A stretch of 64,000 nucleotides of DNA from Marinobacter alexandrii. Lineage in GTDB: Bacteria > Bacteroidota > Bacteroidia > Cytophagales > Cyclobacteriaceae. Made by a program: the position numbers and the translations under genes. This document shows, piece by piece, positions 51,828-53,788 of the stretch. A model generated the notes under the pieces. It had not been told where the DNA came from, ran no database searches, and was given only the letters and a program-made list of their open reading frames with translations. How positions within the stretch are numbered: position 1 is the stretch's first letter; each line of letters opens with the position of its first letter. The stretch covers positions 124,001 through 188,000 of the forward strand of contig JBDWTN010000007.1 of the NCBI GenBank assembly GCA_039984955.1. The letters run 5' to 3'.

Positions 51828-51846
51828 TTTTTAAAGCGATATTCCT

Positions 51847-51877
51847 AAAAAAGCCTCGAAGTATTCGAGGCTTTTTT
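51847..51877 (+). terminator. Rho-independent terminator
   Basis: AAAAAAGCCTCGAA, loop GTA, TTCGAGGCTTTTTT: a 14-base perfect stem ending the S9 peptidase gene, with a T run. Confidence 0.92.
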
Positions 51878-51942
51878 GTTTTATACTTTCTAAGTTTCAC
51901 ATCACTATTTATCTTACCAGTCAAACCTAACCTTATTTATTC

Positions 51943-52527
51943 ATGAAATTAGAAATCAAGTATCAAAAGCGATACTCTCGAGGAGAGCTTTTGCTTAGAT
52001 CAATTTTTGGAGGTATCTACATTGTACTACCTCATCTTTTCTTGTTAATTTTTGTCTCACTCTGGGGTTCAATACTCTCGGTTATTTCATTCTGGATAGT
52101 CCTGTTTACTGGCAAGTATCCACAGAGTTTTTTCGAGTTTCAGGAAGGGCTTTATCGCTGGAACCTTCGCTTAAATGCTAGAATCAGTAATTTATCTGAT
52201 GACTATCCTGCTTTTGGTATCAATGGTAAAGATGAATACACCAGTTTGGAAATCCCATATCCTGAGCGTCTTAGCAGAGGCACTCTTCTATTGCGCTTTT
52301 TCTTGGGAGCCTTCTACGTAATACTACCTCATGCTTTTATGCTTTTCTTTAGAACCATTGCTTCTTCTGTATTACAATTTTTAGCCTGGTGGGTAGTCTT
52401 GTTTACAGCAGAATATCCTCAAAGTTGGCATGAATTCAATGTTGGAACCATTCGATGGGGAATGCGAGTTAATATCTACATGTCATTCATGACAGACGAA
52501 TATCCTCCATTTTCTGGAAAACCATGA
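51943..52527 (+). CDS. Duplicated DUF4389 membrane protein
   Basis: 194 residues made of two copies of the same roughly 97-residue domain. Copy 1 reads YSRGELLLRSIFGGIYIVLP, HLFLLIFVSL, WIVLFTGKYPQSFFEFQEGL and LSDDYPAFG; copy 2 reads LSRGTLLLRFFLGAFYVILP, HAFMLFFRTI, WWVVLFTAEYPQSWHEFNVG and MTDEYPPFS. Each copy has two membrane helices and ends with the RW...R...Y...DxYP signature of DUF4389 (here YRWNLRLNARI and IRWGMRVNIYM). Function unknown. Start of the next gene overlaps its end by four bases (ATGA), giving a coupled operon with a DUF4870-like protein and an M48 protease. Confidence 0.87.
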   Translation: MKLEIKYQKRYSRGELLLRSIFGGIYIVLPHLFLLIFVSLWGSILSVISFWIVLFTGKYPQSFFEFQEGLYRWNLRLNARISNLSDDYPAFGINGKDEYTSLEIPYPERLSRGTLLLRFFLGAFYVILPHAFMLFFRTIASSVLQFLAWWVVLFTAEYPQSWHEFNVGTIRWGMRVNIYMSFMTDEYPPFSGKP

Positions 52528-53009
52528 AAGAACAATATCATCCAATACCACAGCCAAGTGAGCTAAGTGACAGGGAAAAAGATGATGCAATGGGATCATA
52601 CCTTATGATGTTTGCATCAATCGCTGTTGGGCTTCCTTTGCCTATCATTAACCTCATTGCGGCAGTTGTTTATTATTTCACAAACAGGTCGAAAGGTCTG
52701 TTTGTGCATTTTCATTCTTTGCAATCATTGATTAGTCAGCTCCCAACAACCGTCATCAATGCTATTGGAGTGTTTTGGGCCGTTCGTATTTATTTCTTTG
52801 ACTGGGACCTTACTGATAATTTCAGAGGCTATGTAATCATGGCAATCATTTTTAATCTTGCTTATTTCGCATTTAGCATATTAGGTGCAGTGAAGGCACG
52901 AAAAGGACGCATGTATTACTTCCTTTTCTTTGGTAGACTCTCTTATGAGGCTGTATTTAAGATAAAGGAAATAGACGAAGGCAAGAATCAAAACTTACCT
53001 CCTAAATGA
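52524..53009 (+). CDS. DUF4870-like membrane protein
   Basis: 161 residues. A charged N-terminus (EQYHPIPQPSELSDREKDDA) precedes four helices: MMFASIAVGLPLPIINLIAA near 29-50, LISQLPTTVINAIGVFW near 73-90, YVIMAIIFNLAYFAFSI near 103-121, and a short terminal segment. HFHSLQSLISQ after the first pair matches the conserved DUF4870 segment (usually FH..QAL). Small membrane proteins with this domain have no known job. It overlaps DUF4389 and M48 genes by four bases on either side, so it is surely translated with them. Confidence 0.78.
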   Translation: MKEQYHPIPQPSELSDREKDDAMGSYLMMFASIAVGLPLPIINLIAAVVYYFTNRSKGLFVHFHSLQSLISQLPTTVINAIGVFWAVRIYFFDWDLTDNFRGYVIMAIIFNLAYFAFSILGAVKARKGRMYYFLFFGRLSYEAVFKIKEIDEGKNQNLPPK

Positions 53010-53788
53010 AAATATGGCGTGAGTTACTCATACTAGTTTTAGTCTTTGGATTAATCTGGTTAGCATTTACATGGCGACCACTTAGTCTTCCAGGAACAGA
53101 TTTGAGACTTAGCAAAGATCGAGAAAAAGATTTGGCTGAGCTTATCATGGATGACCTGGAAGATGCTTATGAGTTCTATGACGATTCAGTCGTCAACAAG
53201 TTCATCACGCCTATTACGACCCGGCTCTTGGATTCTTTGAAGGATCAACAGTATGTATACAAGTTTCATCTCATAGAGAGTCCAGAAATCAATGCTTTCG
53301 CCACGATAGATGGGCATGTTTATGTTTTTTCGGGTCTTGTCAAGTTTGTAGATAACCCTGAACAACTTGCTGGTATTCTGGCTCATGAAATAGGCCATCA
53401 TGAAAATGGGGACCTAGTGGATCGATTGATGAAGGAACTTGGACTCAGCGTGCTTGCAGCGGTGCTTACAGGTGGAGATGCTGTCATGATCTCTGAAATA
53501 AGCAAGCTATTGATCTCAAGCGGCTTTGATCGTAAACAAGAAAGAGAAGCGGATGATTTCGCCTACGAATTAATGGTAAAGTCCCAAATCAACCCGTCAA
53601 GGTTAGCACATTTCTTTACTAAACTTAAGGCTGAGGAAAAAACCTATCCAGATGATCTTGAAATTATCATGACTCATCCCAATTCTAAAAATCGAATTGA
53701 AGGAGCACTCTCATACCCTCTACCTGTAGAATTTGAGGAACGGAAATTTGATTTGGACTGGGAGCAGTTAATTGAGACCAATCTTTAA
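53006..53788 (+). CDS. M48 family metallopeptidase, membrane-anchored
   Basis: 260 residues. An N-terminal helix (LLILVLVFGLIWLAF) anchors it; the rest would be in the periplasm. The zinc site is HEIGHHENGD at about 126-135 with catalytic Glu in HExxH, and the third ligand is the Glu in READDFAYELM near 181. Other family pieces are NAFATIDGHVYVFSGLV before the site and TKLKAEEKTYPDDLEIIMTH, TKLxxxE...HP, after. Similar to YggG/BepA-like M48 peptidases that handle quality control of envelope proteins. It is the last of three overlapping genes; the two upstream are membrane proteins that could be substrates or scaffolds. Confidence 0.9.
   Translation: MKIWRELLILVLVFGLIWLAFTWRPLSLPGTDLRLSKDREKDLAELIMDDLEDAYEFYDDSVVNKFITPITTRLLDSLKDQQYVYKFHLIESPEINAFATIDGHVYVFSGLVKFVDNPEQLAGILAHEIGHHENGDLVDRLMKELGLSVLAAVLTGGDAVMISEISKLLISSGFDRKQEREADDFAYELMVKSQINPSRLAHFFTKLKAEEKTYPDDLEIIMTHPNSKNRIEGALSYPLPVEFEERKFDLDWEQLIETNL

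Follow-up and report, generated by a model that had tools for sequence, protein, structure and literature searches.

Organisation of the locus

Within the window, i.e. the 64,000 nucleotide stretch of contig JBDWTN010000007.1 that was analysed, three open reading frames on the plus strand occupy positions 51943–53788 and encode a DUF4389 protein, a DUF4870 protein and an M48 metalloprotease. Gene 1 (51943–52527, + strand, 194 aa) specifies a membrane protein with two DUF4389 repeats (PF14333 twice), gene 2 (52524–53009, + strand, 161 aa) a DUF4870 membrane protein of the Tic20-related HOTT family (PF09685, 35.6 bits), and gene 3 (53006–53788, + strand, 260 aa) an M48 metalloprotease with N-terminal membrane anchor (PF01435, 99.6 bits). 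According to the ORF coordinates, both junctions consist of a 4-base ATGA overlap, and together with the Pfam matches this bore out the genes and overlaps of the original prediction. An intrinsic terminator was predicted at 51846–51878 (+ strand), between the operon and its upstream neighbour, an S9 prolyl oligopeptidase gene, and the next ORF downstream lies on the opposite strand, so that the trio looks like a three-gene operon.

The overlaps had been put forward as rare. They are indeed the only two −4 overlaps among the 38 same-strand neighbour pairs of the window, as delimited by a crude gene caller, but ATGA/TGATG overlaps are ordinary in prokaryotes and, according to the available text of PMC6728339, make up substantial fractions of the gene pairs in many of them. 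Among Bacteroidota trios, exact −4 spacing at both junctions was found, besides the window, only in its two closest relatives (L003 and L004), the other spacings being variable, and the overlap was therefore ruled out as the main signal. Ekhidna lutea DSM 19307 (L004) carries trio proteins 79–83% identical to those of the window.

Conservation of gene order

Using the DUF4389 protein as query, 8 loci were retrieved from a named genome collection, 6 of which (L003–L008) are full trios in the same order, originating from a Cytophagaceae MAG, Ekhidna lutea, three Bacteroidetes/Bacteroidia MAGs and an Ignavibacteria MAG. L009, from a Spirochaeta MAG, contains DUF4389 and HOTT genes with no M48 gene at the locus, and a search of its genome for M48 gave no match; L010 proved to be a contig end. 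Across 341 genomes of the taxonomic order of the window's genome, DUF4389 was matched in 12, and the trio is complete in 10 of them, the window's included. G490 and G541 have DUF4389 without HOTT or M48, the copy in G541 being cut off at the contig start; a transposase-like ORF, named by sequence, adjoins this cut gene (L046:1-2284). At family level, 4 of 60 sampled genomes matched DUF4389, all four with the trio, which is absent from G428, the one genome sampled from the same genus. In the phylum sample, surroundings were fetched for seven weak DUF4389 matches (L049–L055), which are no trios as judged by this search.

For Spirochaetota, 164 genomes were searched with the HOTT protein of L009. 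Matches were obtained in 10 genomes, and in 8 of them, with 9 places, at E ≤ 1.0e-33. Full trios are found at six of these nine places (L261–L265, L267), HOTT-M48 with DUF4389 undetected at L268, DUF4389-HOTT at L009, and a lone HOTT gene beside other genes at L266 (G919). The weak matches in G775 and G773 were kept outside the neighbourhood counts, as was a HOTT match in G465 (E 5e-4) from the search of the window's order.

The order DUF4389-HOTT-M48 is thus shared by 24 loci from two phyla, 18 in Bacteroidota (17 and the window) and 6 in Spirochaetota, which places the association beyond chance, while the flanking genes differ between trio loci, close relatives excepted. Its patchy distribution (10/341 in the order; absent from G428) argues that the trio is no essential housekeeping factor. 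A lack of conserved order, or an M48 gene standing alone in most relatives, had been named as findings that would speak against the original prediction; the order is conserved, and M48s of the linked clade were not found alone.

A HOTT-M48 core with exchangeable partners

With HOTT as query, 17 genomes of the order were recovered at E < 1e-20, 10 with the trio and 7 without DUF4389, and M48 stands beside HOTT in all 17. In the seven, HOTT is followed by M48, and genes for a TM2-like protein (7/7) and a DUF2752-like protein (6/7) lie upstream. An example of such a TM2-DUF2752-HOTT-M48 operon is located at L118:3677-5659. A Pfam scan of L118, L121 and L122 confirmed TM2, DUF2752 and M48; the DUF4870 score was 24.2 in L118, just under the cut-off of 25, and 31.4 in L122, over it.

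An M48 of this second operon kind was used to query 247 Bacteroidota genomes and gave 9 matches at E ≤ 6.5e-36, followed by the next at 2.6e-26. Above this gap HOTT directly adjoins M48 in 9/9 genomes, namely in seven TM2-DUF2752 operons (TM2 being unseen in L205), in the window's trio and in G137, where HOTT-M48 occurs alone; below the gap this applied to 0 of 6 loci examined. In chosen genomes, M48 reached E ≤ 1.1e-50 in 12/12 with the trio, the best value among 10 without the trio being 4.3e-23. From the phylum sample, 85 of 100 HOTT rows were examined for M48 (14 were left out and the window's own was set aside as known); M48 stands beside 6 of the 85, all six being of the TM2-DUF2752 kind by sequence, although in L205 the contig start cuts off TM2.

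Every M48 of this kind that was found thus has HOTT beside it, and what lies upstream of the two can be exchanged: the HOTT-M48 pair is the core, to which either DUF4389 or TM2-DUF2752 is added. The original prediction overlooked this core and the exchange. G448 contains the trio and additionally a second-kind HOTT gene with a broken-looking DUF2752 gene and no M48 (L123:5019-5786), as though a genome that holds the trio were losing the second operon kind.

In the M48 tree one branch (SH-aLRT 99) splits 31 linked from 18 housekeeping M48s after prior removal of long-branch and duplicate rows (hk_L056, hk_L061, hk_L101 and the duplicate hk_L109); with all 53 rows, the long-branch hk_L056 falls inside the trio M48s and no clean group results. 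One branch (SH-aLRT 99) likewise splits 33 linked HOTTs, including two without M48 (L009, L123), from 31 other HOTTs, the latter being profile-detected ORFs of <260 aa and hence a set biased towards close ones. Trio members alone are not one clade in either tree. Protein distances are correlated among the three genes of the trio (r 0.70, 0.71 and 0.61; 0/2000 permutations as high), for which shared descent alone would suffice.

Features of the three proteins

Gene 1 matches PF14333 with 62.1 bits (cut-off 25), and each of the two repeats, at 52021–52215 and 52321–52512 (+ strand), exceeds 25; the halves are 46% identical to each other. The duplication highlighted in the original prediction is real but not special, as duplicated DUF4389 occurs without HOTT or M48 in plasmid proteins of Rhodococcus, Streptomyces and Corynebacterium and beside sixA-like genes, by which it was discarded as a distinguishing feature. 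The DUF4389 model (pLDDT 74) consists of two units with one long and one shorter helix each and had no match of weight in the PDB (best Foldseek E 2.8; best Z 4.7 among 47 chains); a reticulon-like hairpin was considered as the fold. Distant DUF4389 proteins are present in 9 of 72,556 plasmid records, and in the 4 of these 9 that were examined no HOTT or M48 is listed beside them, the gene tables being incomplete. On Rhodococcus and Streptomyces plasmids (L062, L065), DUF4389 is located among genes for universal stress proteins and flavodoxin-domain proteins. In L052–L055, duplicated DUF4389 genes adjoin a gene resembling SixA histidine phosphatase (named by sequence), and in a P. aeruginosa gene table in the available text of PMC12054119 a DUF4389 gene follows or precedes gpsA on one side and sixA on the other, with a 4-base overlap with sixA; DUF4389 and SixA may form a conserved pair of their own.

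Gene 2 passes the curated DUF4870 cut-off of 25. Paulus et al. 2024 gave this family its new name HOTT (homologues of Tic Twenty). In the available text of PMC11628618 they describe its members as distant homologues of chloroplast Tic20, known from 38 or more bacterial phyla and uncharacterised with the exception of the magnetosome MamF-like proteins, without which a subset of magnetosome membrane proteins is not correctly targeted. The original prediction overlooked this relation. The HOTT model (pLDDT 79, from 8 sequences) comprises helices at residues 16–33, 39–54, 59–92 and 98–126, in agreement with the superfamily description in the same text: a re-entrant first hairpin, a charged loop and two further membrane helices. 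Compared with 906 chains, Tic20 ranked 2 (7xzi_B, Z 8.8, 130 aligned, rmsd 3.7) and 6 (8z9y_B, Z 8.4, 119 aligned, rmsd 3.3), scores that unrelated helical bundles reach alike, one designed bundle exceeding both Tic20 chains (Z 8.9); Foldseek gave no significant Tic20 match (best E 0.88).

The alignment sets the linked HOTTs apart from other HOTTs. A GLPLP turn in the predicted re-entrant helix (52629–52643, + strand) is partly an insertion, with G36, P38, L39 and P40 in 33/33 and L37 in 32/33 linked HOTTs, columns 35–37 being empty in 30–31 and column 38 in 28 of the 31 others. Y26 stands where most other HOTTs have H. In the loop after this helix (residues 54–72; 52683–52739, + strand), acidic positions have become basic or neutral: position 56 is acidic in 27/31 and position 62 is Asp in 19/31 other HOTTs, both being mostly basic or neutral in the 33 linked ones. 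Gene 2 thereby lacks the acidic residues conserved in loop 1 of HOTTs, as do some other Pfam members; by Pfam it is classified as a divergent HOTT, filed as neither a MamF-like nor a Tic20 protein. With the acidic loop residues replaced, the MamF/Tic20 mechanism may fail to carry over to it.

Gene 3 exceeds the Peptidase_M48 cut-off of 20.3 clearly and has one N-terminal hydrophobic segment (residues 3–21). The N side of this anchor is net positive in 29/31 linked M48s (L043 and L047 have a net charge of 0), and the following 20 residues carry no net charge or a negative one in 27/31, being positive in the window's copy, L003, L202 and L192. The charge pattern fits a catalytic domain that probably faces outward, as in the original prediction, less clearly in the window's own copy. 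The HEIGH zinc/catalytic motif lies at residues 127–131 (53384–53398, + strand). Glu179 in QEREAD (53540–53542, + strand), invariant in 18 trio M48s and aligned with NEQEAD of BepA, is the probable third zinc ligand, and His224 in THP (53675–53677, + strand), likewise invariant in the 18, would be the counterpart of BepA His-246, taking the BepA histidine aligned in THP to be residue 246, as we read the alignment. According to the available text of PMC8423444, His-246 is a switch that turns the protease off. The nearest solved structures are 3c37 and BepA. Six M48 stretches in the window's genome lie over the Pfam cut-off, so that gene 3 is additional to other M48s. In plasmids, M48 was matched in 199 records, all at <60% identity and, among the matches listed, BepA-like or unnamed.

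A role in anti-phage defence found no support, as PADLOC returned only weak M48 matches (E 0.028 and 0.06) and none for the other proteins scanned. Phage or plasmid cargo was rejected as well, as the searches gave no match for DUF4389 in phage sequences and none for HOTT in plasmid records.

Interpretation and alternatives

Our preferred reading, held tentatively and with somewhat more doubt than conviction, is that the products of the trio form a single inner-membrane module for handling membrane proteins, with HOTT as hub and a His-switched periplasmic M48 protease. HOTT, a small multi-helix protein resembling Tic20, would have DUF4389 as its membrane partner, or TM2-DUF2752 in its stead elsewhere, and M48 would be anchored beside both in a physical complex, its catalytic domain reaching into the periplasm. 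HOTT together with DUF4389 would probably act on a set of membrane or exported proteins, by binding them or assisting their insertion, and M48, kept off by a BepA-like His switch, might serve quality control by cutting stalled or misfolded proteins, or else trim them. This reading is based on the conserved order, the HOTT-M48 linkage, the one-branch trees, the relation to Tic20 and MamF given in the available text of PMC11628618, and the BepA-like conserved residues; counted against it were Tic20 fold scores no better than those of helical bundles, the replaced acidic loop residues of HOTT, L009 without M48, the lone HOTT of G919, DUF4389 without HOTT in G490 and G541, and the patchy distribution.

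In mitochondria, OMA1 is a membrane-stress protease that cuts a regulator. The main rival reading is of this type and appears rather doubtful to us: HOTT and DUF4389 (or TM2-DUF2752) would monitor the state of the bilayer and set the His-switched M48 free to cut a regulator, the small proteins being regulators instead of insertases. Small membrane partners interchangeable around a fixed HOTT-M48 pair, a HOTT loop charge differing from that of other HOTTs and the conserved His-switch residue would all suit such a sensor, but no recurring substrate or regulator gene was seen in the operon flanks, and L009 has HOTT-DUF4389 without the protease.

The differing flanks, with no common cargo gene seen beside the operons, also speak against the proposal that M48 matures one specific envelope product delivered by HOTT and its partner. 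We regard this as improbable, even though the patchy distribution resembles that of an accessory trait and the M48s form a dedicated group apart from housekeeping ones. Patchiness across two phyla could also arise if the genes were joined only through moving together, without need of joint action; yet the HOTT-M48 pair is kept in two operon kinds while its neighbours are not, HOTT has no plasmid and DUF4389 no phage match, and the distances of the three proteins correlate, even if shared descent alone gives that, which leaves co-mobility the least credible of these explanations.

The module reading points to a small machine for the handling and quality control of membrane proteins, in which a Tic20-related protein travels with its own membrane-anchored protease. 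Taken further, HOTT-M48 could be the core of an unrecognised bacterial machine for membrane-protein insertion and quality control, in which a Tic20-type insertase has a periplasmic protease to itself and a membrane adaptor that can be exchanged (DUF4389 or TM2-DUF2752), so far in Bacteroidota and Spirochaetota; we consider this extension speculative and on the unlikely side. In the literature searched, whose scope excluded bioRxiv preprints and many subscription papers, DUF4870 and M48, Tic20 and M48, or DUF2752 and the TM2 domain never appeared together, DUF4389 was named in 1 paper and DUF4870 in 4, DUF2752 was unmentioned, and no described system with these parts was found, in line with the original prediction. 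The module is real and conserved, consists of known families and appears to be undescribed. That HOTT keeps its protease partner across both operon kinds and both phyla offers a testable handle on Tic20 relatives in ordinary bacteria and possibly bears on the origin of a chloroplast import component, and an M48 protease group that brings its own membrane partners is identified.

Comparison with known systems

By curated cut-offs, gene 3 is classified as none of the characterised M48 proteases BepA, LoiP and HtpX. With HtpX it shares membrane association, but its anchor is N-terminal with the catalytic domain following, and it scores 29.3 bits (cut-off 245). It belongs with the small M48s of the BepA/LoiP group (72.9 bits for LoiP, YggG), yet stays far under the LoiP NCBIfam cut-off of 365 and has no lipobox, as there is no cysteine in residues 1–30. 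The E. coli periplasmic M48 BepA (YfgC) aligns with its catalytic domain over residues 13–234, including HExxH, the Glu ligand and the His switch residue; the BepA equivalog of NCBIfam is nevertheless not reached (102 bits, cut-off 570), and gene 3 is membrane-anchored, has a HOTT partner and lacks the TPR domain, Pfam finding M48 only in its 260 aa and no C-terminal TPR domain.

Gene 2 resembles HOTT/MamF-like proteins and plastid Tic20 in its Pfam score over the cut-off and in its model, where the first hairpin is broken and two long helices come after it. It differs from them by the added GLP at the re-entrant turn, Y26 for H, the replaced acidic loop residues and its fixed M48 partner, of which the available text of PMC11628618 makes no mention. 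The closest counterpart of the whole operon is the TM2-DUF2752-HOTT-M48 kind, in which TM2 and DUF2752 replace DUF4389, while the HOTT-M48 pair is common to both kinds and stands in identical order at the 3′ end.
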